Of a stretch of DNA of 64,000 nucleotides, positions 6,501 to 50,710 are shown piece by piece. This stretch comes from Auricularia sp. M13 (taxonomy: Eukaryota > Basidiomycota > Agaricomycetes > Auriculariales > Auriculariaceae). The first letter of the stretch is position 1, and every line of letters begins with the position of its first letter. The position numbers were made by a program, and so were the translations under genes. Below the pieces are notes generated by a model. It made no database searches. It saw nothing but the letters and a program-made list of their open reading frames with translations, and was not told the DNA's origin. The stretch is from the NCBI GenBank assembly GCA_037042915.1, contig CM073203.1, positions 1,674,001 to 1,738,000 of the forward strand. The letters are read 5' to 3'.

Positions 6501-7317
6501 TCCATCATGCATGTCATTTATTCCTCATCGCTGTCCTTTATCTCTATGACTGCCAAAACGTTTCCCAGGCCCGTATTAACCTCTTCAACAACTCTCAGCG
6601 CTCGAACCTTCTGTTCCATCACCTTTCTCCATTGGGCCATCTCCTTCTCCTGCGCTGCGTTCGGAGAATCTGACGTGAGGAGGTTCACGGCGTCGGCCGC
6701 AACAAACGGACCGCAATCGTATCCATTCCGTTGCCGCCGACTGCGCTGTCATCAAACCACACCAGTCAGCCGTCTAGGCATCATCTCCTGGTGCAGCTCA
6801 CCTGTTCTCGATGCCACGTGAAGGTTTCCACGTCCAAATCCGGCGCCAGATTATCCTCATATAGTTGTAGAAGCAGGCGAGTCCGCTTCTGCAGTTCATC
6901 TGCGTAGCCGTCGTTCTTCATAGTAGTGAATTCCGCGCGTCGGCCACCGAACTTCAATAAGCGTCCAATGCTGTTCCCGTTCGACATGACCGAAGATTAG
7001 CCATTTACGGCAATTGTGGCCGTTCAGTAGCTTGTAGACAAGTCAGAGAGATCGACGCGCTACGACAGACGCACCTTCCCCAACTTCCCGAGAATTATGG
7101 ATTTGTTGTTCTTCTCCGCATCCGCGTTACCTTCAGATCTAGCGCGGTCGTAGTTGCCGACCTCCCATAGCAGAGCCGAGTGCACAATACTAACGTCGTC
7201 CACGCCGAGTCGCAGTCGTTCGCTCTCGGCCAGAACAGCAAGTCCGTCACCGCTCAGCCACGCCGTTCGTTGCGCGAAACGAGCGAGGTCCTCGTCTTTG
7301 CAGGTGAATCGTCCCGC

Positions 7318-8040
7318 TGTTACGCCCGTGCCCCGGTCCGCGGACCTCACGTGCTCTCGGCATCACTCGGCGTCATTCTACGTCACCCGGCCAACTCGGT
7401 CAACTCGGTCAAGCTCCCGAATACCCGGCTTATTTCCCCTCGTGTTCATATGCTCGGGATATGTTCTCCTCATCGTCCTCTACCTCTAGACCTCTCCCTC
7501 ACTTCTCTAGCTTCTCTCCTTACTCGCATACATCCACCTAACTCGCCTTGTCCCTACTGTATCGATAGTGTTCATATCCGGTTCGCTCCACTCGTCTTAG
7601 TCATTCGCCTCTCGTCATTCGCCCGATCCTCCGATACCTTACCCACTCGCTCTTACTCATCCTATCGGCCGATGACGACGATCTCTATTGATCTGAGGCC
7701 CCTCTCCTTCGTCTCTAGGATACACTCCGAGTACATCGGATCACCTCCCCAGGTATAAAAGACCCTCGACTTTGTATCTAGCTCCCCAGTTACGAAATCG
7801 ACATAGTCGTGCCCCTCGCACACTCTATCTCTCTCTCTCGACTTCGCCTCTGGGTTCTCCCCTCGCCCGACTTACTCGTCTGAGTCCTCTGCTGCTCGCG
7901 GTCCCTTCGGTCGTGCTACTCGACGTAGCCGGTGTGCTCAATAACGCACCGAAGGCTCTAGTTGTTCGTTCGAGTGTTCTCTACGCCCGGACGTTCGACT
8001 ATCCTTGCAACCAAACCCCCAAGGCACAGCAGGCTTAACA
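7318..8040 (+). repeat. 5' LTR of the chromovirus
   Basis: 723 bp, TGTTACGCCC...CTTAACA, matching 15214-15936 throughout as read. A TATA box (TATAAAAG, 7754-7761) marks the probable U3/R promoter. Confidence 0.93.
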
Positions 8041-8049
8041 GTATTTCGT

Positions 8050-8070
8050 AACTCGAGCTCCGCTCGAGTT
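8050..8070 (+). other. perfect hairpin just inside the 5' LTR
   Basis: AACTCGAGC, a TCC loop, then GCTCGAGTT: a 9-bp perfect stem nine bases after the LTR end, where the primer-binding site of an LTR element is expected. I could not match this region to a tRNA 3' end. Confidence 0.55.
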
Positions 8071-8072
8071 GT

Positions 8073-9545
8073 ATGGCCTTTGGGACTCAACAGAATCTCA
8101 GAAGAAACCAGGAAGAACCCCATCCTCTACTCGACTCCCCCGACGCTATCCTTCGCGAAGCTCGTCGTCAGGCTCGTCTTCGCGACCAACAACCTCCTCA
8201 GCCGGCTACGCCTTCGCCATCAGTCTCGATGTCGGGCACTAGCCGCTTCGGATCATCTCGGCACTCGCAACCGCCGAACGATGATGACGAAATCCTCTCG
8301 CAACACACTCTCTCTGGCTCGCTTCACACCTCGCGTTTCTCGCCGGCCCAGTCCACACTACGCGCGGACCCGAGCGGTTCCTACCCTCCCTCAAGTCACA
8401 CGACGCGATCGCCTTCGCATCCCTCGACTCACTCGCTCGGCTCTCGACACCCTCTCGCGCTCGTTCCGTACACAGGCTCTCGCTCGACTCCTCGTCTTTC
8501 GCAGCACTCCTCGTCGTTCTGCGGCTTCTTCCCATCCGGCACCCCTAACACGCCTCGGCGTGGCGGCGGGGGTGGCGGAGGAGGCGGCGGAGGTGGCGGC
8601 GGTGGAGGCGGAGGCGGCGGAGGCGGCGGTGGCGGTGGTGGTCATCGAGGTGCTCCCTCGCCCTCGTCGCACCACTCGCACCACTCGCACCACTCGCACG
8701 GCTCGCATCCTCCGAACCCTCCTTCCGGAGGTGGCGGCGGTGGGGGCGGTGGTGGCGGTAACGGTCCTCCTGGTCCCCCGGGACCTCCCTTCGACCCTCC
8801 GTCGGACGGCTACGACTCGGACGTCGATCGCGAACGACAATTCCACGATCAACACGACAACATCCCTCGTGTCTACTTTGTCGACCGCGATAGCGGCTCT
8901 CGCATCGACGCCGCCAAACCCGACAAATTCGACGGCGAAAACGCCAACAAACTTCGCGGATTCCTCATCGACTGCGAAACCTACTTCCTTGCCAACCCTC
9001 GGAAGTACCAGACGTCCCGCGAGAAGATTCTCTTCACCGCGACCTATCTCTCGGGTCGGGCGAAGGAATGGTGGGGCGGCTACGTTCCTCTCGTCCCGAA
9101 TCCGCCTCCCGGTTACGAGTTCCTCGAAGACTGGAACGAATTCAAGAACGAACTCACGATCACCTTCGGCGTCACGAACGAACGCGAACGCGCCGAAGTC
9201 AAGATTCGACGACTGCAAATGGCCGACAACGGCAAGGTCGCCCGCTACAAGCTCCAGTTCGACGAATACGCCAAACTGCTCGGCTGGGACGACGCTGCAC
9301 TCGCCTCGCAATTCTATCGCGGACTCCCTCGCCGCATCAAATCAGTCTTCGCCGCTCAAGTAGCTCAACGCCCGGCTTCTCTGACGCCACTCGCTGCGCT
9401 CGCTCTTAGCATCGACGCCAACTACTGGATCGATAAGGACGAGCAAGCTCTTGAGCACGCGAACGAACCCCGCAAAGCGCAGAAGACCACCTCGACCGCG
9501 ACGCCTCAATCGGGCTCCCGATCGAACACCAAGTCCAACGCGCTC

Positions 9546-9576
<31 letters not shown>

Positions 9577-9800
9577 TCGAACAACCACTCGAACTCGAGG
9601 GGTCAGTCCTCGACCTCGGCCCGCTCGTCTTCGAAGACCACGACCAAGTCGAAGGACGACGTCGCGAAGAACCTCAACTCGAACGGCAAGCTCAACGACG
9701 CCGAACGACGCCGTCGCCTCGACAACAACCTCTGCCTCTACTGTGGCCACGCCGGCCACACCGCGTCCGAGTGCCGCAAGGCCGCTCACAATCGCGAGTC
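8073..9800 (+). mobile_element. Gag region of the chromovirus
   Basis: Capsid-like sequence with a Pro/Ser-rich N-terminus, a long glycine run encoded by GGN repeats (about 8560-8760), His-Ser repeats, a conserved retrotransposon-gag middle (around 8880-9420) and a Gln/Asn-rich stretch. A CCHC zinc knuckle, CLYCGHAGHTASEC, lies near 9730-9780. Gag packages element RNA into virus-like particles. Confidence 0.85.
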
Positions 9801-9899
9801 GAAGGGTCGCGCCGCTAAGGCTCAACCCGCGACTTCCTCGACGCCGGCTCCCGCTCCCTCGGGCGCCGCCGCTTCTGCCCGGCGGAAGCGAAAACTAAC

Positions 9900-12800
9900 G
9901 GGCAGTTCCCCACGGGCATCTAGGGCCAACTGCGTCAAGCCCAAGATGCCTTACACTCGGTTGAACGCTGCCGTGCTCACCGATCAAGACGCTCTCATCG
10001 TCGTCCTTTCCTCCGACGCTGTCCCATCCTTTCGCACACTCGTCGACTCCGGCTCCGAAGATCAGTTCCTCGATACTCAGTTCGCCGAGAGTCTTCGACT
10101 CCCTCAAAAGTCTCTCGATCAACCGCTACGCCTTCGGCTCTTCGACGGCTCCTATCGCGGTGTTATCTCCAAATACGTGTCGCTTCCCGTCCGCTTCCCT
10201 TGCGGAACTTCGATGATCATCAACTTCCTCCTCACCACTCTAGATCCGACTTGCTCTGCAGTGTTGGGATACCGCTGGTTGGCCCGCTACAATCCTAGGA
10301 TTGACTGGTTCCATCACCGCATTTCTTTCCCCACTCGTGTCTCGCCCTCGGATCCCTCGGGTTTCGTCCCTGGGTTCTCGCTCGACTCGGATCCTCCGAC
10401 TCCGTCGTCACCTCCTCCCGCGTCACGTACTCTGCCTCCCGAACCGCCGATGGACGAAACCGCCCTTCGCGCGGCCGCTGCTCGCGTCGACATCAAGATC
10501 ATCGGCGCCGCAGCCTTCGACACCTCTCGTCGACTTCGCGGCTCGATGGTCTCGGCCATCTACATTCGAGATCCATCGGTGCCCGCTCGCTCTGCGTCTG
10601 CCAACCCGGCCTCGGAAACCGGCGAAGGCATCCCCGAGTGTTATCACGAGTTCCTCGACGTCTTCTCAAAGGAGGCCTCGAATCGACTCCCTGAACATCG
10701 GCCGTACGATCTCAAGATCGACATGGAAGAAGGCAAGCCTCTCCCATCCGGTCCGATCTACTCGCTCTCCGAGCCCGAGCAACTCGCGCTTCGGGAGTAC
10801 ATTCAGGATAACCTCAGCAAAGGACACATTCGCTCGTCGTCGTCCCCGGGTGGCGCCCCGGTTCTCTTCGTCAAGAAGGCCGACGGTTCTCTTCGCCTAT
10901 GCGTCGACTATCGTGGGCTCAACAAGATCACTCGGAAGGACAAGTACCCGCTTCCGCTCATCTCGTCCACGCTCGACCGCCTGCGCACCGCCAAGAAGTT
11001 CACCAAGCTCGATCTTCGTGTCGGATACAGCAACGTTCGCATCGCGGCCGGTGACGAGTGGAAGACTGCCTTTCGAACGCGCTACGGCACCTACGAGTAT
11101 CTCGTCATGCCTTTCGGTCTCACGAACGCTCCAGCCGCTTTCCAGCGCTTCATGAACGACATCTTCTCCGACCTCCTCGACGTCACGGTCACCGTCTACC
11201 TCGACGACATCCTCATCTACTCGGACGATCCCTCGAAGCATGAGGAACACGTTCGAGAGGTCCTTCGACGGCTGCGGGAGAATGACCTCTTCTGTAAGCC
11301 CGAGAAGTGCGAGTTCCATGCCGACACCATCGAGTACCTCGGGTACATCATCAGCCCCGAGGGCATCAGCATGGACCCGAAGAAGATTGCCACCCTCCTC
11401 GAGTGGCCCGTTCCTCGCAACGTTCGCGACATCCAGTCGTTCCTCGGCTTCGCGAACTTCTATCGACGATTCATCTACGACTACTCCGATATCGTCGTCC
11501 CGCTCACTCGTCTCACTCGAAAGACCGCAACGTGGAACTTCACTCCGCAATGCCTCGCTGCGTTCAACGAGCTCAAGAAGGCGTTCACTTGCGCCCCGTC
11601 CTTCACCACTTCGATCCCGCTCTCCCTCGCGTCGTCGAGACTGACGCTTCCGACCACGCGATCGCGGCGATCTTCTCGCACGTCCTCCCGGACGGCTCTG
11701 TTCACCCCGTCGCTTTCCATTCGCGCACGCTCACTCCCACCGAGCTCAACTACGACACGCACGACAAGGAGCTACTCGCGATATTCGAGGCGTTCGAACA
11801 TGGCGACACTACCTCGAAGGGGCCGAGACCCCACAGACGTCGTCACGGACCACAAGAACCTCGAGTATTTCTCCACCACGAAGATGCTCACTCGTCGGCA
11901 AGCTCGCTGGTCCGAGTACCTTTCTACCTTCAACCTCCTCATTCGCTTTCGACCCGGTCGACTCGGCGGCAAACCCGATGCTCTCACTCGCCGCCACGAC
12001 GTCTATCTCAAAAGGGGGATGGTGGCTACGCCAGCGCAAACCCGCAGAACTTCCGACCCGTTTTTACTCGGAACAGTTCGCCGCTTCCCTTCGCGCGACG
12101 TATGCTGAAGAGACTTTCCTTCGCGCAGCCACGATCATGGACACTCAGTCCATTCGGGATGACATTCGCGCCTCGTACGACTCGGACGAACTCGCTCTCG
12201 ACATTCGCTCGAAACTCGGCACCGATGACGCGATCAACTGGTCGGCCTCGGACGATGGATTCTTGCTGTTCAAGGGCAGGATCTACGTACCGAACGCTCT
12301 CGATTGTCGCCTTCGTATCCTTCGCGAAAAGCACGACCACCCGCTCGCTGGCCATCCGGGTCAGAACAAGACACTCAAGATGGTCGCCCGCGAGTACTAC
12401 TGGCCCGACCTGCGCGACTCGATTCGTACCTACGTCCAGGCCTGCGTCACCTGTGGGCGCAGCAAACCTCGGAGACACAAGCCGTACGGTCGACTTCAAC
12501 CCCTCCCGATTCCGCTTCGCAACTGGGACTCGATCTCGATGGACTTCATCGAACAACTCCCTGAGTCCAACGGTTACACCGCGATCCTCGTCATTATTGA
12601 TCGCCTCTCGAAGCAGGGTATCTTCGTCCCGACCAAGGGCAAGATCACCTCCGAAGAACTCGCGCGCCTCTTCCTCATCCACGTCTTCGCCAAACATGGC
12701 GCTCCCTCGCACGTCTCTACCGACCGCGGTTCCGAATTCGTCTCCCGCTTCTTTCGCGCACTCGGCTCGCTCCTCAACATGACCATGCACTTCACCTCGG

Positions 12801-13654
12801 GTCACCACCCGGAGGCGAACGGTCAAGTCGAACGCACGAACCAGACGCTCGAGCAGTACCTCCGTCTCTACTGCAACTACGAGCAGGACAACTGGTCCGA
12901 GCTACTCCCTCTCGCCGAATTCACGTACAACAACACCCCGAACGACTCGACTGGTGTCTCGCCTTTCTTCGCCAACAAGGGTTTTCATCCGAACATCTCC
13001 GTCTACCCCGAGCGCGACGTTGCCTCTGCTCGCGCCCGCGACTTCGCTGTCGACATCCACGAACTGCAGGACGTCCTGAAGGAGCAGATCGCTGCCGCTC
13101 AGAAACGTTACACTGCATCTGCGAATGCTCGACGCACTCCCCCGCCTGACTTCAAGGTCGGCGACATGGCCTACGTCCTCTCGGAACACATCAAGACGAC
13201 GCAGCCCACTCGCAAACTCGCCGATCGCTACCTAGGCCCGTTCCCGATCGTCGATCAACCTAGCTCGCAATCGTTCACCCTCAGCCTACCCGACTACCTC
13301 GCTTGCGTACACCCGGTCTTTCACGTCTCGCAACTCGAACCCCACCCTCGAGAAGCGTTCCCCGGTCAATGTCAAGAACCTCCTCCGCCCGTCGTCGTCG
13401 ACGGCGAGCAAGAGTACGAGCTCGAAGTACTCAGCGTACGCATCGACAATCGCCATCGTCACTCGCGCCTTCGTTTTCGCATTCGCTGGATCGGTCACAT
13501 CGGCACTCCCGACGACCCCGAGACCACCGAGATGGGTTCCGAAAATCTCGAACACGCGCAAGAAGCAGTTCAAGACTTCTATGCTGCAAATCCCAGCGCT
13601 CCCGGCAGTTATCAAGAATTCCAGCAGATCCTCAAAAAATTCGAAAACATCTAA
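9900..13654 (+). mobile_element. Pol region: protease, RT, RNase H, integrase, chromodomain
   Basis: Landmarks in order: aspartic protease (LVDSGSEDQFLD, about 10030), reverse transcriptase (about 10700-11480, with YLDDILIYS), RNase H (about 11600-12000), integrase with an HHCC zinc region and a DDE core (ending near HPEANGQVERTNQ, about 12330-13180), and a chromodomain-like C-terminus (about 13410-13600). A chromodomain after the integrase defines chromoviruses and is known to steer integration towards particular chromatin. The family commonly makes Gag-Pol by frameshift or read-through. Confidence 0.9.
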
Positions 13655-13774
13655 GCACTCGCTTTTTCACTCGCTATCTCTTCGCTCACTCGCTTTTCAC
13701 TCGATTCCAAGAAACAGCCATTTATTACATTTTGGGCGACTTTGGTCGCACCCACTACTACTCTATCCTATCGC

Positions 13775-15015
13775 CTACTCGTCCGCGTCCTCGGTCGCTT
13801 CCTCGACCGCTTCCTCGTCCTCCTCCTCGGACTCCTCCTCGACCTCCTCCTCGGCCTCCTCTTCCTCCTCGCTCGAAAACGGATTGTCGATCGAATCATC
13901 GATCGACTGACCGAACTGCTGCGCTTGCCACTGCAGCATCCGGTACAACATCCTCTCGATGTTGTGCACCGAGTTGTTCGTCCACAGGGCGTGGTTCTCC
14001 ACGACCCTGCGGTGCTCGGCCGTCTTCGCGCGGTCCTCGGCCGCCCTCGTCCCCAGCGTCGTCCCCTCGACGATGCGCACCTTCTTGGGGCGCTCGGGCG
14101 ACGCACTCGGCGACGCCGCCCTCTTCTCGCCGCGCGGCACGAATGGCTTGCCCGAGTGCGTACACTTGCCCCGGGTCTGATGACACGCGGTGCAGGTGTT
14201 CGACCGGTGCTGCCGAACGCACTGGCCGCCGCGCTTGGCGCAGGCCTCGCACTGCTCGATGTCAGCCCTGGCGAGCAAAACACGAACAACCGAAAACTCA
14301 CCTGACTCGGGAACCGCGTCCCGTACGGCACCTCCGGCCACCTGTCCGTGAACTTGCCGCCGGCGCGCGGCTTGGGCTTGGGCTTGGGCTTCGCGGCCGG
14401 CGCCACCGGGCTCGCGAGCTCCTCGACCTCGTCGTCGTCCTCGAGCGTCTCGCCCGCCCCGAGCGACGGCGAGCGAGCGACCACGACCGGCGCGGGCTTC
14501 GGCGCGACCTTGCGCGGCGCCTGAGTCGTCTTCGCGACATCAACCTAAAACAAAAAGCGCACCTTAGCCAAATCGCGCAGTCGAGGTAACTCGACCCATA
14601 CCTCCATGGCCTTCCGCCTCTTCGGCGGCGACTCGGTCTCCCTCGCATCCTTCGCCGGCGCCTTCGTGCTCGTGGTCGGCGCTTTCGCCGGCGACGCCTG
14701 GCTCTTCGTCGCCTTGGCGCCCGCGTCCGCCGCGATCTTGGCCACGCGCTCGGCCAGCATCCCGAAGCGTCGCTGCGCCGCCAGGCGCAGCTCGGCCTTC
14801 GCCTGGCGCCTGCGCGCGCTGAACGCCTCGATCGCGTCGAGGTCCTCCTCATCGACGGCCTCTTGCTGCAGGCCGCCGAGCGTCCGCTTCGCGTCCTCGT
14901 GCGCCGCGATCAGCGCCTCCATCGTCGGGTCGTCCTCGAGCGACCTCATGACGGCGCCGACGGTCTTGCGGTCGTACGCGGCGGCGACGTCCTCGAGCGA
15001 TTCGTATCGCGGCAT
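13775..15015 (-). CDS. antisense Zn2Cys6-like gene carried by the chromovirus
   Basis: On the strand opposite to gag-pol, between the chromodomain and the 3' LTR, three exons join through two phase-0 introns of about 57 and 50 nt (GT-AG, branch-like CTAAG and CTGAC) to give about 377 aa with no internal stop. Residues 1-110 are helical and acidic/basic, 110-215 are a Ser/Pro/Lys-rich linker with KPKPKPK and an RKAME patch, about 220-250 hold a Cys block C-x2-C-x6-C-x8-C-x2-C-x6-C, the spacing of Gal4-type Zn2Cys6 clusters, and the tail is Glu-rich. The second intron ends directly before the first Cys pair. Introns mean that the gene cannot have been carried through its own spliced mRNA; it travels in the sense genomic RNA, where the introns read backwards. 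A regulator or DNA-binding role is an inference from the Cys spacing only. Confidence 0.65.
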
Positions 15016-15200
15016 GGTGGGCGGCGGGCAGAAGACAAGAGTGGTTCGACGATTCAACTCCCGACCCAACCACTTTTAATCTGCGCCCGACCCGTTCCGA
15101 CCCGACCCGATCTTTTGGCCCCATTCGGACTCAAGTGCGTGCTATCTCACTTTCTCGTATTCACCTTGCGTTGCTGCAGTCCTTCGTGGGCTCAGGACGT

Positions 15201-15210
15201 AAAGGGGGGA
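15201..15210 (+). other. polypurine tract
   Basis: AAAGGGGGGA ends three bases before the 3' LTR, the site that primes plus-strand DNA synthesis in LTR elements. A similar AAAAGGGGGA occurs inside pol at about 12010. Confidence 0.8.
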
Positions 15211-15213
15211 TAC

Positions 15214-15936
15214 TGTTACGCCCGTGCCCCGGTCCGCGGACCTCACGTGCTCTCGGCATCACTCGGCGTCATTCTACGTCACCCGGCCAACTCGGTCAAC
15301 TCGGTCAAGCTCCCGAATACCCGGCTTATTTCCCCTCGTGTTCATATGCTCGGGATATGTTCTCCTCATCGTCCTCTACCTCTAGACCTCTCCCTCACTT
15401 CTCTAGCTTCTCTCCTTACTCGCATACATCCACCTAACTCGCCTTGTCCCTACTGTATCGATAGTGTTCATATCCGGTTCGCTCCACTCGTCTTAGTCAT
15501 TCGCCTCTCGTCATTCGCCCGATCCTCCGATACCTTACCCACTCGCTCTTACTCATCCTATCGGCCGATGACGACGATCTCTATTGATCTGAGGCCCCTC
15601 TCCTTCGTCTCTAGGATACACTCCGAGTACATCGGATCACCTCCCCAGGTATAAAAGACCCTCGACTTTGTATCTAGCTCCCCAGTTACGAAATCGACAT
15701 AGTCGTGCCCCTCGCACACTCTATCTCTCTCTCTCGACTTCGCCTCTGGGTTCTCCCCTCGCCCGACTTACTCGTCTGAGTCCTCTGCTGCTCGCGGTCC
15801 CTTCGGTCGTGCTACTCGACGTAGCCGGTGTGCTCAATAACGCACCGAAGGCTCTAGTTGTTCGTTCGAGTGTTCTCTACGCCCGGACGTTCGACTATCC
15901 TTGCAACCAAACCCCCAAGGCACAGCAGGCTTAACA
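15214..15936 (+). repeat. 3' LTR of the chromovirus
   Basis: 723 bp, equal in length to the 5' LTR and apparently identical to it. It is followed by target-duplication copy CCCGC at 15937-15941. Confidence 0.93.
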
Positions 15937-16540
15937 CCCGCTCTGTACACGACGCGCATGACGGGCTTCTTCCTCGGTGCGTTCGATGCCGACGGTTCCA
16001 GTGCGATAGCGATAGCCATATCATCTCGCGCGGCGTCCTGTATGAGATAACATGACTACGTTAGAAACAGCCGCATGATCTTAAAAACACACTAAATACA
16101 CTCACGGCGTGCTGCGTGTTATCGCGCGGTGCGATCGAAGTTCGCGAGGCGACTGACACAACTTCATCAGCGTCCTGAACGAGGATTACGTTATTCTCAC
16201 AATGAACTGTCTCCTTACGAGGGATTCGCGTACCTTGGTATCACCCCCGAGTTCTGGGTCAATTGCTAACGGCGTGGTCCCCGCCGTGTCCAGCTCAGCG
16301 GCTGGATCATCGTCCGCGTCAGAGCCAAATAGGCTGTGCTCGTCCAACCAGTCCACTACGGGGTCGTCCTCGTCATCGCCGTCGGAATACGCATCTGACG
16401 CGTCGTCTGAGGCCATATCTTCCGCGTCATCTGCCTCACGCGCGTCGGGTGCAGGAGGAGCGTCGCGGACGAGTTCTGGCGCGTCAGACACGTCGCGCAG
16501 CGCGTCGTTGCCCAGCTTGTTGAGAAACCGCTCGTAGAGC

Positions 16541-30808: not shown

Positions 30809-33800
30809 ATGGCACCGACAACCTCTACCTATGAACCACCCCGCAAAGGCCGCGGCAAGAACAAGCTCAAGCGACCGGCATCGTCGTCTGGGACGCCGTC
30901 ACCATCAAAAAAAGGTTGCACATCTATCACCGGTGAGATCAGCTCGTCTTCGCGGCGGGCGGTGCGACTGACGCAGTATCTGAAACAGCATCAAGCACGG
31001 CGGTCGAGGCGTCAGGACAGACGACACCGACACTGAGTAAGTGTTCGTGATGCATTTGCGCATGAGTGTTTCATGATGTGGTTTACAGTCAGCGTACCGA
31101 CGACCCCGCGACGAGCGTCCAAAATGTCTGTACCGCGCACACCGTCTCTGTGGCGAGCGCGACCCCGGCTTCGAAGCTTCATCCTACCCAGGCTTATGCT
31201 CAATATCGGGAACTGGTCGACTATCGAGCAGCCCAGGTCTTCCGCCTCGACGAGCGCACCTGGGTCGCCGAACTCCACGACGTCGCTACAGGCGAACGGC
31301 ACGTCGGTGTAAATGCGTGGACGGTCCTCCAGCGGCATGTTCACCTGGCGGGCCCTGCGACGCATACTTGCTCACCATGTCCAGATTTCCAAAAATACGA
31401 TACCTGTGTTCATGTTCAACTTCTCGAGAGTACGGACCGCCGAGAATTTAAAGAATTGTCTGCAATGGGTGAGATCTGATTCCAAAGTAATGGCTGCCGG
31501 AGCGCTCAAGTGAGAACTCAGACAATCCCGAGTGCCTGCCCATCGGCTACGACCCCCGTGCGGGAGACGAGGACGCGCTGTATACGTTTGTCTGCATGTC
31601 GCCCTCCGAAAGCCCGTCTTCGTATGCCATAGCCGTTCGAGCGACAAGACGAGCTCGTGGGCATGCAGCAAGGATCGCGCGGGCGGCTGCATCCATATCT
31701 CGCGCGCCCGCAAGGCTCTGAAGATGACCGAGGGGGGCGAAGCCGCGCAAGCGGACGAGGAGGAAGCGGGAGAAGACCCTGCTGATGAAGAAGATGCCAT
31801 GGCGGCGAAGCGTCGTAAAGGTCGGTCGGAACGTTGTCGCCTTCGCCACGGGGTACTCAGCTGTTGTAGTCAACGAACGCAGCCTCAAGATGCTCGCGGA
31901 CGAGCAGAGCGTGTCGTACGAGAGGGTCGGCCCGCCTGCCTGGAGCCGTCTGGCGAGCGACACGGCTCCTTGGTTCCCGTTCGTCTCTCCGCTGCCCGCG
32001 TTGCTGCCACTCGGCTCAGCGCCCGCTGCCGCTGCGGCAGCGGTCCGAAACCAGGCAGCACAGTCCAGCGTATGGAGTGCACGGTCTACAGCTCGACGCG
32101 TGCGGAAAAGATTCAGATCGAGGTCCAGCCTTGCGCAAAGGAAGAGAGGGTCTTCGCTGGGCCCGACTTGCGCGAGCTCGGTCTCTTTAACTACAACAAC
32201 CACCGCGTCTATACGCACGAGCTCATCAACAAGTTCACCAGCTCGTACTGCGCGCACGAGCTGCCATTCCATGCGTACCAGAGTGTGATTCAGAGGACGT
32301 ACGTAGAGAACCGCAGTCCGATCGACTTCGTCAACGACGACACCTTCCGCCTCGTGTGGTACTCGTTCTCCCGCATACAGGACCTTGGCGACAGCTTCCA
32401 ATGCGAGAAATGCGGTCCCAACCCAGCCGTCGTCATCTTCGACGGTGTGACCGCGGGTTTCAACTCCAAGCACCGAACAGCAACGCTCACGCCCCCAACG
32501 ACGATATTACCCGGAGCGCCAACGCGATCGTCTGTCGGCGGTCCTCCGGAAAGCACCGCCGCAGTGTGGGGTCAGTTACGACAACGTGCGCAGCGGGCAG
32601 TGCGCTGGCGCCTCGGGTTGACGAGTTCCAACAAGTCCAAGTTGGACGGCATCAGCACCGAGGATAACGAGTCCAACACGCGCGCCGTGCCCGACGCCGA
32701 CGCCGAGTCACAAAAGGCAACCCGCGATACCGACGCCCGAGTCTCGAAGCGCGACGCAGCTGACGAGGCGATGCGGGCGAGCCTTCCGGGTATCGCGAAA
32801 GAGCTGAGCGGTGTCGATCCGAGTCTCGGCGCCATGTTCGAAGCGATGGTGCGCACCGACTACGACGCGAAGGAGCTGCAGAGACGGCCCTATCTTGAAT
32901 TATTGAATCATGTGAGCGCTGCGACGTTGAACCTCGGGCCCGTCACTTATTGTAGCCCGCAGGTTCTTGCTTACGAGTCGGTTCTGATGTTCACCCCGGG
33001 TTCGACTTGGCTCGCGCTGAAACGCTTGTGTGCGGACGACAAGCGCGCAGCCGATGTACTGCTGCGCGAAGTCCCTGCTATTGGGATCGTGGCCCGTCAG
33101 GAGCTACAAGCAGACGGTCAATACTCGCGTGTCTTGAAGGGCCTCGTCGCGTTCGTGCTGGCGCGTGCCATGCGCGTTCTGAGCTCGTTGGGGGAGCATG
33201 ACTTTGAGCCTGCAAACCCGACCGGCGACGACGCCGATTGGCGCGAGGTGAGTGCATAATCAGCATCGCCGTTGCTGTCGCTGATCGATATGGTAGACCG
33301 GTACCTTCTATGGGCGCCCTCGCGTGCGTCTGCGCCCGGAATACCCTCACCTGCCTGGCGACAAGAAGGTCGACCGCCGACCGTGACTCAGAGTGGCGCG
33401 GGCGGCATCGGCTGCTCGGTACTACGAAACCTACGGTCTCAGCGGTCAGACGGGCGGCCTGATGGCCGCATGGTGCCCCCATTGTGTATGCCTCGGTTTT
33501 CATATTATTCCGACTGGCGAGGGGCGAAACGACGTGTTCTCAGCTGTATTCACACGTTGGGAGAAGGCACCGGACATCATCATCTACGACTTCGCGTGTG
33601 CGCTGGGACCCTACTGCATGCTCCGCGAGCCCAAGTTCTTCGCTCACACGCGCTTCCTCATCGACGGCTTTCACGAGAAGGGGCACAGCCGCTGCTCGAA
33701 TGCGTGCAAGATCAGCACGTTCAAGAAGAACTCCCCCGAGCTGCTCTCTGTGAACTCCAGTGCTGCCGAGTGCGGCAACAGCGGCTTGCGCAAAATCCGT

Positions 33801-33911
33801 CGTCCGATGAGCTATATGACGCAACGACACGCCATCGTCTTTGCATATACTTATCTCGCGGCCTGGAATCGCGTTCGCCGTGTCATGCCCGGCCGGCGCG
33901 GCCGGAACTGA
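30809..33911 (+). CDS. KDZ-family transposase with SWIM finger (probably degenerate)
   Basis: A multi-exon DNA transposase. After a basic N-terminus (from MAPTTSTYEPPRKG) comes a SWIM-type zinc motif C-x2-CPDFQKYDTCVHV (about 31375-31420) and an acidic linker. A Cys cluster FQCEKCGPNP precedes the first acidic residue, VIFDGVTAGFN (about 32430-32460). The second lies in IIYDFACALGPYC (about 33580-33620), with REP...FLIDGFH...GHSRCS after it. The Glu lies in SSAAECGNSGL (about 33760-33790). These blocks match the DDE core of fungal KDZ elements with CxC clusters. A 49-nt intron runs 33248-33296. Between about 33360 and 33425 the frame changes twice, without a convincing intron, so the copy may be inactive or contain sequence errors. 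No coding insertion is present. Confidence 0.75.
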
Positions 33912-34230: not shown

Positions 34231-34387
34231 CCCGTAGAGCTCAAAGCTGACACGGAGATCATGCGTCCAGCTATCACGCAGACACATGTGGATGCCAAGT
34301 CGGCGAGCTACCGCGAGACGCACACTTTCGTGCACTACAGTGCGTGAGCAATGCCGATATCGAACTCGAAGTTGCTGCGCACCAGAT

Positions 34388-34865
34388 TGTTGCGGTCTTC
34401 GTCGGGTCCCTCCTCCCCCGCTGTTTCATTTCGCCGTCCCGTGGCCCTCGCACCTCGTCCGGGCGCCCAAACTCCTTGCGCCCGGCCCCGTGGCCCTTTC
34501 GTCGGCGCGTCCAAGCGGTCTCTCCGCTCGGCGAGTACCTCGGTCTCTTCCCAGGAGAAGGGTAATACGACGGGATGTTTCTGGTTTGGTTGGGCTCTAT
34601 TTATCCCGGGTTTCCTGTCTCGCCGACGACGCCCGGCGGTCTCTTTCGGCCTGATCTGTGGCGCCCGCGTGGCAACCGGTCGGTGGCGCAATTGGTCCGC
34701 GGGTCCCTCGGCCTTGCTTCCGTAGTATATATATCTGGGCCGTCGCCCCTCTTGTACCTTAGGTTTGGTCTGGTCTATCATACCGCTTATCCGCGCCTCC
34801 CTCTCCCCACTCATCCCTTCCCCTCGGGCGTCGTCTCGGAGAGTGATATAGCAGTCACCGTGACA
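34388..34865 (+). repeat. 5' LTR of the shortened element
   Basis: 478 bp; contains TATATATA about 340 bp in, a likely promoter. Confidence 0.9.
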
Positions 34866-35527
34866 TAAGACCAAACCCCTCCCTCCCGACGCTCGAGATC
34901 CCCATACCCCTTACTCACCACCCTTCCAATCCGGGCGAACCGTTCGGTCGGCGTTGCTCGGTCCTGGAAGGAATCCGACCCCTCGGACCGGCTAGGAGAC
35001 CCCTCGCGTCGACGAGGACCCGTCGCGACCGCCGCGCCCACTCATCGGCCCACCAGGACCCTGCAGGACCCACCCTCCGGACGCCGAGCCTTGCCCACTG
35101 GCCTTCTGGTCAGGCACTCAGCCAACGAGGACCCCTCCAGACCCATACGGTCGTCAAATCCGAAAGCTCATTCCATCACCGGCTCCTGATCTCTCCCCTT
35201 CATCAGAGCCCGGTCATCCGCGGCGAGACCACCCCCACAAGCCCTACTCGCCGAACGCGCCGCTGCGTCCCCACCCCTCGGTCAACCTCTAAACCTCCCA
35301 CGGCCGACCCCTCTCTCCAGAACCTCACCCTCCGCGCATCCCGAGAGCAAGTTCCCCCCGTGGTGCGCGCGGCGCATCCACATCATCTTCCTCGGATCGT
35401 GACCCCCATCATCCCCACGCATCAACGCTACGACACATACACCATATAATCCGGATCGGCCGCCAGACCGACGCCTCTTTCCCCTTTTCCCCGACACGCC
35501 CCTTTGTTCGGACCGAACGCTCACAAA

Positions 35528-35880
35528 ATGTCCCAGTACGACGAGACCATAGTTAACCCTCAATACATACCGGCGGCAGTCCTGGATCACCGCGTACACC
35601 GAGGAGTTCCCCAGTATCTCGTCCAATGGATGGGCTTTCCCCGAGGACGCTAGCTGGCAACTGGCCGCCGACCTGGACGGAACCGGACTCGTGGAGGAGT
35701 ACCACGCCGAACCACCGGAGCCAAATGAGGACCAAGGCGCCGCACAGGACCTGGACCAGGATGCGGACATGGACCTCGGCGAGGACTTTGGCGACGGATC
35801 CCAAGAGCTGTTCGGCGAATCACCCATCAGCACCGGCGAGTCACCCTCGCCGCCGACGAGTCGCCCGAACTTGAGGACGC
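35528..35880 (+). mobile_element. chromodomain remnant of the shortened element
   Basis: Begins MSQYDETIVNPQYIPAAVLD and reaches YLVQWMGFP, the usual chromodomain core, then acidic sequence (EDQGAAQDLDQDADMDLGED). In full chromoviruses this domain follows the integrase. The stretch is broken. What lies between here and 36300 I cannot identify. Confidence 0.6.
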
Positions 35881-36599
35881 GCGCCCGGCCACACCCCGCT
35901 GGAGCTCATGCCCCTTCGCGCTCGTATCCGGTCGCCGGACCCGGGAGACACCCAGCTCAACATCTCCATGCTCGTGGCCCCTCCCCAACCGTTCTTCTGG
36001 ATGCTAGACCGCTTCACTCACTACGGCCGCTTCGCTGCCCCGAGACATCTCCCGCTCGATATCTCGCGTTACTGGGTACTCCCGACCGTCGTGCGCAATG
36101 ACCGAGGTCGACGGGCTCGCACCGAGCTAGTGGTCTTCTCGTTCCCACCTCGCCTCGGCCCTCATCTCCTCACGTCGCCTACGACGGAGCGAGCCCTCCA
36201 GGTTGTTCGGCTTACGGCGTGCCTTGTCTGGGACGTCCGCGAATATCGTTCCACGTACGCCGACGACGCCCTGGTCCTGCGGATCGCGTCCCCCGACCCG
36301 GCCCACCGTCTTTGAACGCTCCGGACGGTCGCCCCTGCCTTGTACAGCAGCACGCTTTGCGAAGCTGAAACCGCCCTTCTTTGTCGATATCTATTGGCGT
36401 ACAGGTGACGCCACCCGTTGTTCCCTCCCCCTCGGCGACCGTGCCCAAAATCGGACCCTACCTCGGTCGGACGCTGCTTCGGTCGGATGCTCTCCACAGT
36501 CACAGTCCCGGTCGTTTCTCATACCCCGTATTTATGCTCGTCTTTCCGCCTCTCTATTTACATATTTTACGAGCCTCCACACCACTACCCAAATCGTAC

Positions 36600-37870
36600 C
36601 CGGACACGGTCTTACTCCTCCATGGGTTGGCCCGCATCGACCGACTTCTCCCCTATCACGGACGCATCCCGACCCTCGGACCGTTGGACGCGTGGCAGGA
36701 ATCCGGACCCGGACCCAGACGCCTCCATCGACGCAAAGCTGGGTGTCGGACGCACATCCCCCGGTACTACCACGCCAAGAAGGGCCAGGTCGGCGCCGAA
36801 GTCAGCAAGCACGCCGACAGGACCAGCCGGCGCCTCCGCCTCCACGCCCGCGGCGCCAGGGGAAGTCGGCGCGTCGGTGAACGACCTCCCCGCCTCGTCC
36901 TCCACCGCTCGGCCGTCATTGGAGTCGGTATCGCGCTCGCTCCCGCCCGGCGACACGAGGCGCACCGTCTTATGGGCATGCCGGTCATCGACGAGCTCTT
37001 GCGTCCACTTGCGAAGGTCGCGCCTCAACGCCGAGACGGACAGCTGGAACCCCTGGACGATGCGGTCGCCCAGGACCTCGAGGTCGGCCATGGTGGCTGT
37101 CCCCGGCGACCGAAGCCTTCGGCGTGTGCGCGACCGCGCCACGGACGCGCCGACGGTGTCCACCACGTCGTCCTGGTCCGGATCGTCCCCGTCGTCGCCG
37201 TCTACGTCAGCGTCTTGTCGCGCCCTCTTGCGCGATGTGCCCGACCGGCCGACACTGTGAGAACACCCCACGCGGGTCCGGTGGCAGCGAGCACAGGCAG
37301 TCGCCGACCCGGACACTTGTCGAAACACGGCTGGCCGGAGCGCTCGCACTGCTCACAAGGCTGGACCCGGACGAAGGATGTCAGCGCAGGATACACCCCG
37401 GAGCAAGAGGACCTTTGGCCAGGACGTACCGTGTTAAAGGAGGCCCGACCGCGTCCTTCTCCTCGTCGCCGGTCCCTCGCGCGCCGACGTCCGAAGGCCG
37501 CCGACCCAGACGCTACCGCTCCCGATGGGCCCTTGCCCTTCGCGGTCGAGGAGGTCGTTCTCGTGCGGCGAACCCCTTCCACCTTCGGCACGACGGGGAG
37601 CGAGGCTGCTGTCATGCCGAGGAGAGACGCCGCCGTCTCCAGATTGCGGGTCGCGGCGTTGCGTCGGCGCACCTCGGCGTCAATGGCCTCCAACCGCTGG
37701 CCCGCAGACGCAAGCACCGTCCGCGCCTTCTCCTCCTCCGCGTCCGCGGCGTAGTGCCCGAAGTTCAGTTGGCGCTGGATGGAGGCATGCAGCGTGAACA
37801 CCCGCTCCCTGAGGTCCCGAAGTTCGCCGAGAGGCTTCGCAGTCAGTCCGTCGGCGGCGGTGGGCGTCAT
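36600..37870 (-). pseudogene. antisense Zn2Cys6-like gene relic in the shortened element
   Basis: Minus strand, in the same place as the antisense gene of the 7318 element: after the chromodomain remnant and before the polypurine tract. It starts MTPTAADGLTAKPLGELRDL with a helical N-terminus, then a Ser/Lys linker (TTSSTAKGKGPSG). The Cys pairs CEQC-x6-C and CARCHRTRVGCSH correspond to CEAC-x6-C and CTACHQTRGKCTH of the other copy. The helical and acidic C-terminal part resembles the other copy in layout. A candidate 69-nt intron ends next to the first Cys pair, the same position as in the other copy. The gene is broken (at least one break). Confidence 0.6.
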
Positions 37871-38083
37871 GGGATATCGGACGGTGACGGGAAGCGGGGA
37901 GACGAAGAGCGAGAAGTACCGCGGTTCGTGTACGGCGACGGCCGAGCCTTTTGCGGCATCTGACGCTTAGAGTTTGATCCCGCGGCGGATGGAGCTCGGC
38001 CCGGTCACGCTATGGTCCGTCTCCCCACGCCCGATCTAACCCGCACCTCCCCTGGCTATTCCCACCTCGGCCACTGGACGGCT

Positions 38084-38093
38084 AGAAGGGGGG
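38084..38093 (+). other. polypurine tract of the shortened element
   Basis: AGAAGGGGGG, three bases before the 3' LTR. Confidence 0.7.
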
Positions 38094-38096
38094 TTA

Positions 38097-38575
38097 TGTT
38101 GCGGTCTTCGTCGGGTCCCTCCTCCCCGCTGTTTCATTTCGCCGTCCCGTGGCCCTCGCACCTCGTCCGGGCGCCCAAACTCCTTGCGCCCGGCCCCGTG
38201 GCCCTTTCGTCGGCGCGTCCAAGCGGTCTCTCCGCTCGGCGAGTACCTCGGTCTCTTCCCAGGAGAAGGGTAATACGACGGGATGTTTCTGGTTTGGTTG
38301 GGCTCTATTTATCCCGGGTTTCCTGTCTCGCCGACGACGCCCCGGCGGTCTCTTTCGGCCTGATCTGTGGCGCCCGCGTGGCAACCGGTCGGTGGCGCAA
38401 TTGGTCCGCGGGTCCCCTCGGCCTTGCTTCCGTAGTATATATATCTGGGCCGTTGCCCCTCTTGTACCTTAGGTTTGGTCTGGTCTATCATACCGCTTAT
38501 CCGCGCCTCCCTCTCCCCACTCATCCCTTCCCCTCGGGCGTCGTCTCGGAGAGTGATATAGCAGTCACCGTGACA
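38097..38575 (+). repeat. 3' LTR of the shortened element
   Basis: 479 bp, about 99% identical to the 5' copy. The differences are mostly one-base length changes in C runs. Confidence 0.9.
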
Positions 38576-41500
38576 CAGATGCATCCTCTGAGACCCCGCG
38601 CAGAGTCGCGGCTTCCTCGCACCACCACTGGCCAAGAGACCCCACCTCTGCCTCCACACGCTCAATCTCCTCTGTACAGCGCCATTTCTCGAGCAAAGCG
38701 GCTATCCCGCGTTGCACATTCTCGTCCGTCACATACCGTGGCAAATCCGCCTCGTCTTGTGGTCCCAGGCCGGGATCCTCCTGCCAAATGTCGTCGTCGA
38801 CGTCCAATTTAAACAGTTTCTTGGCGACGAGCTTGCGCGGGAGCCGAATGCGGCCCGGAGGTCTCTTGCCCTGGCGCGCGAGAAGGTTCATGCGGTCGAC
38901 CATCTTGTTGAAATGCAACACCTGCGCGCTGATGGTTTTCTCGCGTTTGTGGACATGGTCCTTCGTCTGCGAGTGGTCCTTCGCCTCTGCTGCAAGGTTA
39001 CGCCAAGCGACGACGAGATCAGTGAACCTGGCGTACCTAGGATCTGGTGACGGTAAGCCCGCTCCAATTTACGACGGTCAAACTTGTGCGCGATCAAGGT
39101 CTTGCGAATCTTGACGCGCTGTGCGCGCGCATTGACGCGCAAACGGAGGTACTCGTTGCCGCGCATCTCCTCCAGCCGCCTGCACTGCTCCGTGCCCAAC
39201 GACGCCTGCAAGCTCTCGACCTTGGCCTGGATAGAAGAGATCTCCGAAAGGGCCTCTTCAATACGCACTGTGGTCTTGTGAGTCTCAGAGACCGACAGTT
39301 TGTGCGATTTTCGTAGCTCGGCGCGATCGTCCTTGATCTGCTGCTTGAGACTGTCGATCGCACCGAGAGACAATAGAATTTTGTCGATAATCTTGTCTGC
39401 AGCGTTTTGCAGTTGACCTGCACATGAAATGATAAATAGCGCGAATCACACAAGGCCAGACATTGTTCAAACTTACGAGGGCTTTTTTCGAGCTGATCCG
39501 ACGCCTGCGCGTCCCACTGCTTTCCCAGCTCCTCCTCGGACTCCCCGCTCGCCTTGATGATGTCGTTTGCTTCGTTGCAGCGCCGCCTCGCGGTCATGAA
39601 GCGCTTGCGCAACCAGGCAGCAAGCTTCCACATGCCGCCGTAATCGAATGCTTGCATCTGTCGATCGAGAACGAAGAGACGACGGTGAAACTGTTTTACA
39701 CAGGTTCAGGTTTTCGCGATCGTTTCGCGTACAGGACTCACCCCTGATACTCGGAGTCCAGCAATGAGATGCCGAATGCTGCTCCAAAATCGTTTGCAGC
39801 CTTCACCATCGCTCAAGCCGAAACCGTTCCGTTTTGCTGGTGGAATACGACCTGACAGGCCCATTGATGACCGTACGCGTGAAACACTGAGACGCCGAAT
39901 GTCAAACGATCTGCTATCTCGGGAAGAAGTCCCCACTAAATTTTTCCTCATTAGCGTCGGTCAATATCTCGTGCAATGATTGGGATACATACCTTCTCGA
40001 TGCTCCTTGAGATTTGGCAGGCAATATCGTAGAGAAGGCCAATTCTCCACTCGTGGGGCAGTTCCTTCGTCAACTCCTGAATCAGGGCCAGCGCGTAGTG
40101 CTGGCGCTCTCCTGGGCTAGTCATGTTGGTGACCAGCAGCACGCGGTCGTGTCGACACAGGAGGGCCATGAGCCCCGTATCGGCGTAATAGTTCTTCGAC
40201 GCCTTTGTGACTTTTTCCTGCGCTGCTATGAAAGACTTTTCGCACTCATCGAGCACGTCGTCGCCAACCCGCGCCGATGTACCGCGCGTGCGCCGCCGTG
40301 CTGGACGCTTGCGCGACTGGGCGACCTCGGCCTCCATGGCGTCCACTGTCGCGCGCGAGAGGAAACGACCGCCCAGGAATTCGATTGGAGCGTCCACCTT
40401 GTCCGACTTGCGCCGTTTCTGGGCAAAATTTGCGTCGATGCATACCACAACGTCAGCACTGCATCCATGCCGTCAGCTTCCAATGCAATGCGCGGGATTG
40501 CGGCAACACGTACGTGCTATGCTCCAGCACAGGTCGTTCTCCGCCAAAACACAGCGGGCATAATTGCCGTAGACGAGGCAATGGTCTCGTTAGACGCTCG
40601 GGTTGTTCCTCTGTGTTCTCGCGGTCGTGCCCGATCTCACCAGACACGTCTCCGCTTGACTGTTACCATTGTTAGCTTTGTAGCGAAGACTGGAATCCGT
40701 GTGTCCCACCTCCTCTGCGAGGCGTGATTCCGCGCGCTCGTCGCCAGTAGGATCTTGCGCGCCGCGCTACGGACCAGCGTCAAAATCAAGAAGATCGTCC
40801 AAAATGTGCGTACCTCTGTATCTTGCGTAATCGCACCCCGCGGTTCCACGCGGTCCGACGCGTCGTTGCTGCCGTCCGAGACCACATCCACGCGCGCGCG
40901 CTTTCGCGGGCGCGCATTGATGTCGGGTCCGGTGCCATGTTTCCTCGCGCTGCTTACTGCGGGTCTCTCAGACTCGCCTCGCTCCCAATCGTCAGTTAGC
41001 AGAGCACACCTTGTAATTCCTCGCTCGCGAAATATTCCGCACGGTTGTCCAATATTTGGTACCAAGTCATAGCCATGCCCAAGCGTTTCCTCAGGTTTCC
41101 CTGAGATAGCATCGTCATCCACTGCCTTATTCGCTCACTGCAACGCGGGGAGAGCTTACAGTAGACCTCCGAAAACGGCCGCGTCGAGCCCAGAAAGTTT
41201 CCAGCGTGTCCGCCCATGCGGTGGTGTTGGGCGCGACGTTAAGTTTAATGTATCGAAATGAGATCCAATAGCGTAGTGCTGAACACCATAGATGGGCACT
41301 TCGGGGCGCATGGGAAGTACCCAATTGACAAGAGACGCTCTGCCGGCGAACTGCACGAGCAGATATCAATGAGAGCATCCTTCGTGCCTGTCAAGAGCTC
41401 AGAAATCGCTCATAAATTTAATGAGATACGCTCACCGAGTATGTCCACCAGTGCTATGCGAGTTGCACGCTTGAGCGCACGTGCAGTCCGCCAGCTGCTG

Positions 41501-50194: not shown

Positions 50195-50710
50195 CCGTTG
50201 CAGGTGGGTCAGTGGGACAGCAGGTGGTGGTGCGGGTTTCGTTGCGGGTCCCTGTATAGTAGTGCGGTTCCCATTGCGGGTGCGTGAATGCCAGTGCGGT
50301 TCCCGTTGCGGGTCCCTGAATAGTAGTGCGGTTCCCATTGCGGGTGCGTGAATGCCAGTGCGGTTCCCATTGCGGGTGCGTGAATGCCAGTGCGGGTCCC
50401 GTTGCGGGTCCCTGGGTGCGCCTGCGGGTCCCGTTGCGGGTCCCTGGGTGCACCTGCGGGGCGCCCTGCGGGTCCCTGGGTGCACCCGCGGGTGGCCCTG
50501 CGGGTCCCTGGGTGCTCCTGCGGGTTGCTCTGCGGGACCCATTGCGGATCACTGGGTACGCCTGCGGGTCCCGTTGCGGGTCCCTGGGTGCGCCCGCGGG
50601 TGGCCCTGCGGGTCCCTGGGTGGCTCCTGCGGGTTGCTCTGCGGGACCCATTGCGGATCCCTGGGTACGCCCGCGGGTGGCCCTGCGGGCACTGCTGCGT
50701 GCGGCTTATC
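50195..50710. repeat. GC-rich minisatellite
   Basis: Imperfect repeats of modules such as GCGGGTCCCTGGGTGC, GTGAATGCCAGTGCGG and TTGCTCTGCGGGACCC. Long frames on both strands are a by-product of the repeat. Confidence 0.75.

Follow-up and report, generated by a model that had tools for sequence, protein, structure and literature searches.

Most of the antisense genes described so far in LTR elements come from plants. Whether a fungal element can carry such a gene as a working part of itself is the question raised by a stretch of 64,000 nucleotides from Auricularia sp. M13 (hereafter the window), in which a spliced reading frame containing a block of six cysteines lies opposite to gag-pol, just ahead of a 3' LTR.

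A young Ty3-type element

The element concerned (element 1, the window's member of family 1) occupies positions 7318-15936 and is a young LTR element of Ty3 type. Its two LTRs, of 723 bp each, are identical, and the features by which Ty3/Gypsy elements are recognized were found in it: gag, a reverse transcriptase placed before the integrase, the LTR pair, a polypurine tract and a TSD.

7313-7317 and 15937-15941: TSD CCCGC, from the flanking sequence
7318..8040, + strand: 5' LTR (TGTTACG...TTAACA), 100% identical to 15214-15936
7788..7798 in the LTR against 8043-8053 just past the 5' LTR, + strand: self-priming-like signature, 11 nt of exact complementarity
8073..9818, + strand: gag (Pfam Retrotrans_gag, E 3e-14)
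9818..13654, + strand: pol (protease-like, reverse transcriptase, RNase H, integrase), from Pfam domains and frames
15201..15210, + strand: polypurine tract (AAAGGGGGGA), from the sequence before the 3' LTR
15214..15936, + strand: 3' LTR, from the LTR pair and flanks

Pfam domains recognized in pol include RVT_1 (E 1.5e-39), Integrase_H2C2 (E 2.5e-19) and rve (E 5.5e-8). Gag-pol is assigned to the + strand because the gag, reverse transcriptase and integrase domains lie there, as do the polypurine tract and the self-priming-like signature. In Tf1-type self-priming, the 5' end of the RNA is complementary to the sequence after the 5' LTR. This mechanism is described in the available part of a survey of LTR elements (PMC2864245). 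Complementarity of this kind occurs in both LTR elements of the window, over 11 nt in element 1 (7788-7798/8043-8053) and 10 nt in element 2 (34762-34771/34868-34877), and may point to self-priming. The first-pass annotation called element 1 a chromovirus, a label that the pol C-terminus does not bear out: it gave no Pfam chromodomain match at E 10, and a sub-threshold match was found instead in the second family described below. Despite the identical LTRs, pol of the window copy (9451-13654) is divided between two overlapping frames, while in other full copies the frame is broken elsewhere, or longer; the split in the window copy could be real decay or an assembly error.

An intron-containing gene opposite to gag-pol

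An antisense frame of 377 amino acids, divided among three exons, lies beyond the pol stop (13654) and ahead of the 3' LTR. The annotated exon structure, with introns of 57 and 50 nt, was confirmed, as was the cysteine block directly after intron 2.

13721..13726, - strand: AATAAA, poly(A)-like signal, 49-54 nt past the antisense stop in the window copy
13775..14251, - strand: exon 3, with the cysteine block, a linker, a predicted long helix, an acidic tail and the stop
14162..14251, - strand: cysteine block C-x2-C-x6-C-x8-C-x2-C-x6-C, immediately past intron 2
14252..14301, - strand: intron 2, 50 nt (GTGAGT..GAGCAG), phase 0, directly 5' of the first cysteine codon
14302..14544, - strand: exon 2, weakly constrained taken alone
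14545..14601, - strand: intron 1, 57 nt (GTATGG..TTTTAG), GT-AG in 39 of 40 copies
14602..15015, - strand: exon 1, with the ATG at 15015; frame constrained among copies
15074..15079, - strand: TTAAAA, TATA-like, about 60 nt 5' of the ATG

Both the AATAAA and the TTAAAA are kept in all 13 of the 13 full-length copies compared. Just 5' of the ATG, at 15036-15100, a conserved inverted repeat (AAGTGGTT ... AACCACT) and a CGG-rich stretch were seen by eye and form a candidate binding site.

Copies of the gene and purifying selection

The genome to which the window belongs (52.1 Mb, 14 contigs) was searched with the antisense protein, giving 49 matches at 46 places (three copies matched twice), and with the cysteine block, giving at least 45 family-1 copies. 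Integrase neighbours were sought with the 92 best matches from a list of 150, for which 150 out of 263 candidates had been scored. On this basis, 40 of the 45 copies have an opposite-strand integrase 1.09-1.39 kb downstream, which in one case is a different integrase, 46% identical; three more have one at 4.7-5.3 kb, and two have none within 9 kb. In 39 of the 40 copies in which the gene was read, all four splice-site dinucleotides are GT-AG. The proposal that antisense introns survive in the genomic RNA thus agrees with the copies, in which the introns persist as expected if the sense RNA serves as template.

When 35 copies were compared with the window copy (the reference itself, L021, L030, L055 and L059 being excluded), differences at codon positions 1, 2 and 3 numbered 376/13112, 274/13114 and 915/13123 (2.9%, 2.1% and 7.0%), those in the introns 352/3044 (11.6%), and those in the splice dinucleotides 0/280. 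Distinct changes present in at least 2 of 36 copies were also counted as synonymous or replacement in all six frames; the antisense frame gave 44 synonymous to 38 replacement changes in exon 1 (p 2e-7) and 55 to 41 in exon 3 (p 1e-11). The signal in exon 2 is weak, at 17/23 (p 0.03) without its first 24 nt and 3/5 (p 0.37) within them. Pooled pN/pS was 0.43 in exon 1, 0.59 in exon 2 and 0.22 in exon 3. By the NG86 method, the 36 pairs formed by nine chosen copies, which include the broken-frame copies L027 and L053 and the degenerate L022, had dN/dS of 0.19-0.66 with dS no higher than 0.39; 30 of the pairs fell within 0.19-0.40, and the six above 0.4 (0.43-0.66) all include L022. Under strict rules, the spliced frame is fully open in 18 of 40 copies, among them L022 with its 23-nt intron 1.

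Judged from the copies' sequences, the antisense frame of family 1 is a protein gene under purifying selection, and we conclude that it is maintained by active source elements and lost in old copies. This upholds the idea that a fungal LTR element harbours an intron-containing antisense gene conserved as a protein, on the grounds of codon-position bias, kept splice sites and dN/dS. Decay at the neutral rate, which the first-pass annotation had named as its refutation, was looked for among the family copies and was not found.

A codon-like stretch within intron 1

Intron 1 behaves as an intron in some respects and as coding sequence in others. Its donor, a GCTAAG and the terminal AG are kept in nearly all copies, as in an intron, and its length is 56-60 nt in most (23 nt in L022, 47 nt in L054 and L059). 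The frame around it is kept in open copies despite this varying length.

14601-14557, - strand: first 45 nt of intron 1, reading VWVELPRLRD[L/V]AKVR in the frame of exon 1, with codon-like variation
14521..14562, - strand: possible alternative intron 1, 42 nt (AAG|GTGCGC ... CTCAG), frame-compatible, a hypothesis

In 30 of 34 copies (L021, L022, L030, L054, L055 and L059 excluded), these 45 nt encode VWVELPRLRDLAKVR or VWVELPRLRDVAKVR in the exon-1 frame, and at one site five different leucine codons are used. Amino-acid differences amount to 1.04, against 3.52 expected, and none of 5000 column permutations gave a value as low; among the five other frames, only one reached 3%, a sense frame whose wobble position coincides with that of the antisense frame. 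The same permutation gave 0 of 1000 at the start of exon 3, like the intron 1 stretch, and was unremarkable in the gene's frame at the start of intron 2 (43%), in the first 24 nt of exon 2 (11%) and in the last 45 nt of exon 1 (31%). The pN/pS of the stretch, 0.13, is below that of every exon.

It could be supposed that all of this constraint comes from the sense strand, through an overlapping frame, packaging or 3'-end signals, with the antisense frame a by-product. The wobble-sharing sense frame is indeed in synonymous excess, at 40/42 in exon 1 and 44/52 in exon 3 (p about 1e-4), and in single changes within the 45 nt of intron 1 it is slightly the stronger, with 9 synonymous to 5 replacement changes (p 0.007) against 8 to 6 (p 0.03) for the antisense frame. 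It is also open over exon 1, as are two of the three sense frames over exon 3, and an open frame alone is weak evidence because this GC-rich DNA keeps several frames open. The wobble-sharing sense frame, however, has three stops over exon 3 and two over exon 2, in exons 1 and 3 its excess falls short of the antisense one, and the antisense frame also wins the permutation in intron 1; we therefore regard a sense-strand origin of the constraint as very improbable.

That intron 1 is only an intron is disfavoured by this codon-like variation, and the region would appear to combine splice signals with codons. Since its first 45 nt vary like codons, the antisense gene is probably alternatively spliced. 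Either an mRNA that retains intron 1 would be translated, or the 42-nt alternative intron would be used; its donor (AAG|GTGCGC) lies 39 nt further on and its acceptor (CTCAG) 24 nt into exon 2, so that the frame is kept, and a branch point was looked for by reading the sequence of this 42-nt intron, with no clear one seen. Two other candidates were rejected. Retention of the intron with a fixed stop conflicts with the read-through tail, which is not conserved among copies because the length of intron 1 varies; a frameshift in place of splicing was rejected on the same ground.

Nature of the antisense protein

The whole antisense protein gave no Pfam match above cut-off, the C-terminal part giving weak YqzH matches, and no relatives were found among the phage records or viral contigs searched. 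The Zn2Cys6 cluster (PF00172) has the spacing C-x2-C-x6-C-x5-12-C-x2-C-x6-8-C, and in Gal4 the six-cysteine block is followed by a linker, a helix and an acidic tail. The antisense proteins of both families have this cysteine spacing, with a middle interval of 8 in family 1 and 10 in family 2, and the family-1 protein shares the succession of linker, helix and acidic tail with Gal4-type regulators; it is unlike them in that the half resembling R-x-K/R comes second, and in that its profile match does not rise above shuffles. The isolated blocks scored 13.3 and 15.7 bits against a Zn2Cys6 cut-off of 21 bits, while ten swapped-layout shuffles with fixed cysteines reached 18.8 and 19.0 bits. A genome-wide PF00172 search returned 35 matches at E 0.001, none of them at the antisense genes. 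Of the earlier description as Gal4-like, the cysteine spacing stands, but kinship does not follow from Pfam scores that fall within shuffled controls or from a PDB profile search without a match at E 10.

Two closer connections were tried and given up. A Zn2Cys6 cluster with swapped halves (a circular permutation) raised the scores from 13.3 to 17.3 and from 15.7 to 23.1 bits, against the 18.8 and 19.0 bits of the shuffles; the family-2 swapped block alone tops all ten shuffles and also passes the cut-off of 21, and no claim is made from it. Kinship with LEU3 and LAC9 (PDB profile E 0.34 and 0.46) was lost with a corrected and lengthened alignment, which gave nothing at E 10. A single-sequence PDB search gave two matches (E 0.16 and 1.1), both to unrelated proteins. 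The structure model from the single sequence, of poor quality (pTM 0.30), has two hairpins instead of helices at the cysteines and a long helix behind the block. Charge is unevenly distributed: residues 221-260 have 8 K/R to 1 D/E, and the last 33 residues 0 to 23.

The reading that we favour, by a modest preference, is that the antisense gene is the element's own accessory gene and encodes a putative nuclear, zinc-binding regulator not filed as Zn2Cys6, a proposal drawn from the cysteine spacing, the weak model and the charge make-up. A protein that does not bind DNA is less probable in our judgement and yet a serious contender: as an accessory factor it could bind RNA or Gag, assist nuclear import or suppress host silencing, which would fit coding selection on a protein that has no domain above cut-off and hairpins in place of zinc-cluster helices in the poor model. 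Against it, the protein taken as a whole is regulator-like, with its cysteine spacing, a basic stretch, a helix and an acidic tail, and a second family without gag-pol still keeps a related gene.

A related gene in a family without gag-pol

Element 2 (34388-38575, in the same window) is a non-autonomous LTR element of 4.2 kb that lacks gag-pol.

34383-34387 and 38576-38580: TSD CAGAT, from the flanking sequence
34388..34865, + strand: 5' LTR, 99.2% identical to 38097-38575
35528..35641, + strand: opening part of the sense frame, covering the first half of a chromodomain (Pfam Chromo, below cut-off)
36612..37360, - strand: antisense exon 2, with the cysteine block
37361..37429, - strand: antisense intron, 69 nt, phase 0, one codon ahead of the first cysteine
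37430..37870, - strand: antisense exon 1
38085..38093, + strand: polypurine tract (GAAGGGGGG)
38097..38575, + strand: 3' LTR, from the LTR pair and flanks

The sense frame matches Chromo at E 1e-4 (22.6 bits, against a cut-off of 25.1), is broken downstream in the window copy and has 25 matches in the genome. The antisense frame of the window copy is interrupted inside the cysteine block, where most other copies are unbroken; two copies of this gene were read, one of them in part, and the selection figures above cover family 1. The genome holds 27 copies of the family-2 cysteine block, and none of the 27 has an opposite-strand integrase within 3 kb downstream among the 150 integrase matches listed. 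Forty-one LTR matches were listed (40 of 195 candidates scored), forming 17 pairs 2.5-9 kb apart. Among these listed matches, the cysteine block occurs in 15 of the 17 pairs, in antisense every time and in most cases some 1.34 kb from the element's 3' end. They represent 14 distinct elements, 12 of about 4.2 kb and two of 4.9 and 5.1 kb, one element having a doubled LTR; the two pairs without the block, both on contig C3, may be separate LTRs. Two genes were thus seen in this family, the chromodomain-like sense frame and the antisense cysteine-block gene, and it seems unusual for an element without gag-pol to carry a chromodomain protein of its own.

Compared pairwise, the cysteine blocks of the two families are 43% identical over 35 aa (E 3e-6); the genome search gave a single cysteine-block cross-match between the families (E 0.083), and the N-terminal parts are barely alike (E 0.036). 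A phase-0 intron precedes the block at nearly the same place in both. Taking block, intron place, strand and position together, the two antisense genes likely share descent. A further relative of the antisense N-terminus, 55% identical (E 1.6e-9), lies at G000:C8:2048888-2049040 and possibly represents another family.

The presence of the gene in two LTR families indicates long residence, which bears on the idea that it is a recently captured fragment of a host gene. Introns of its own and a poly(A)-like signal would suit such an origin, but in genome searches with the cysteine block and the N-terminus the strong matches, judged by sequence, were all of the types seen in the two families, next to a few weak ones, and recent capture is in our estimation the most implausible of the alternatives.

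Diversity over the antisense gene

Of 20 copies retrieved in full, 13 are full-length and served to measure diversity; the other seven have no second full-length LTR match. It is 0.009 in pol and 0.011-0.013 in the LTRs and gag, and rises to 0.023-0.028 in the antisense exons and to 0.07 and 0.13 in the antisense introns; at third positions it is 0.043 in the antisense gene against 0.017-0.021 in pol. The resulting peak covers 13658-15015, the antisense gene and its 3' flank, and is by part roughly 2-14 times the level of pol and the LTRs. Variants over the gene fall into haplotype blocks that reassort between copies. Recombination with older lineages is the simplest reading of the peak, with selection for difference a possible alternative.

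Unusually high silent diversity might also be thought to favour the antisense RNA, and not the protein, as the active agent. Such an RNA would pair with the genomic RNA over 13.7-15.2 kb and feed or titrate small-RNA silencing, the protein being secondary; the layout is convergent, with the antisense gene fully overlapping the genomic RNA, and a role of this kind has been put forward for plant elements in the available part of one account (PMC7264820). It leaves unexplained the codon-position bias, the frame kept around an intron of variable length and a dN/dS near 0.3, and we consider it unlikely.

A proposed mode of action

If the gene does encode a DNA-binding regulator, its promoter would lie within the 3' LTR or immediately next to it. 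Splicing of the transcript would give two protein forms, since intron 1 would at times be kept or be removed from the other donor. The protein would be nuclear, hold zinc by its six cysteines, pair through the long helix behind them and contact DNA, and its acidic tail would stimulate or modulate the element's transcription or help the element to evade silencing. Genomic RNA of the sense strand would run through the antisense gene unspliced, so that each new copy would inherit the gene with its introns.

A broader reading, which we offer tentatively and think doubtful as a whole, is that an alternatively spliced antisense regulator is common to autonomous and gag-pol-less families and moves between lineages. 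Intron 1 would then be in dual use as splice signal and codons, one antisense transcript yielding two proteins, with and without the cysteine block or with mutually exclusive segments of 13 and 8 residues. The parasite family would retain its sense chromodomain gene and the antisense regulator while borrowing replication, and the antisense gene would pass between element lineages as exchangeable haplotype blocks.

Relation to known antisense genes

Zhao et al. (2011) are said to have described Boty-like elements of Botrytis cinerea with an antisense gene, brtn. An antisense gene placed between pol and the 3' LTR is in print for plant elements and for the fungal Boty (PMC7264820). In the available sections of the literature, brtn is the antisense gene of Boty-like elements (PMC7264820, PMC8365987, PMC4227169), and Boty gag-pol is described with a chromodomain (PMC4227169). 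Boty resembles element 1 in being of fungal origin and in the position of its antisense gene; the host of Boty, however, is an ascomycete, and brtn was compared from its published descriptions.

The plant genes of aORF-3R type include those of Grande (gene23), RIRE2 and Retand (ORF4/TRP28) (PMC7264820, PMC11963269). Like the gene of family 1, they lie antisense between pol and the 3' LTR in most copies (PMC7264820). The product of Grande gene23 is described as nuclear, the gene having its own promoter (PMC7264820), while the Retand antisense protein TRP28 is predicted to bind DNA and some Retand elements are non-autonomous (PMC11963269). The plant protein is a different one, and the available sections of these papers describe no introns in its gene (PMC7264820, PMC11963269); in the text of the Retand paper the term "intron" is absent altogether.

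Closest in working, as far as the accessible accounts go, is HBZ of HTLV-1, in which a spliced antisense transcript from the 3' LTR encodes a nuclear protein with an effect on transcription of the virus; unlike the present case, HTLV-1 is a retrovirus and HBZ a bZIP protein without the cysteine block.

The first-pass annotation had expected a new accessory-gene arrangement. Its position is not new, being in print for plants and Boty, but antisense introns, a cysteine block and a coding stretch within intron 1 were not found described elsewhere in the literature searched, of incomplete coverage, nor, within the same coverage, was an antisense gene in a fungal family lacking gag-pol. The gene may have been described before, since a figure legend in the available part of a survey of fungal and plant elements, basidiomycetes included, names an "additional open reading frame" (PMC2864245). 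What distinguishes the present case is a young fungal family of many copies whose antisense gene contains introns, resembles a regulator in its make-up and is under purifying selection, together with the retention of a related gene by elements without gag-pol. Regulation of the element by an antisense product thus becomes directly testable in a fungus, and the antisense introns would reveal both strand and splicing unambiguously in RNA.

Other features of the window

Parts of KDZ transposases lie at 31532-33911, 39951-40448 and 62040-62591, one of them with a CxC4 cysteine cluster; the piece at 33393-33911 is just under cut-off. Together with the style of the introns, these KDZ/CxC4 sequences point to a basidiomycete host. 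An Ulp1-like protease fragment is found at 59545-60066 (Peptidase_C48, E 1.4e-4), and a GC-rich tandem array with a 32-nt period occupies 50199-50699.
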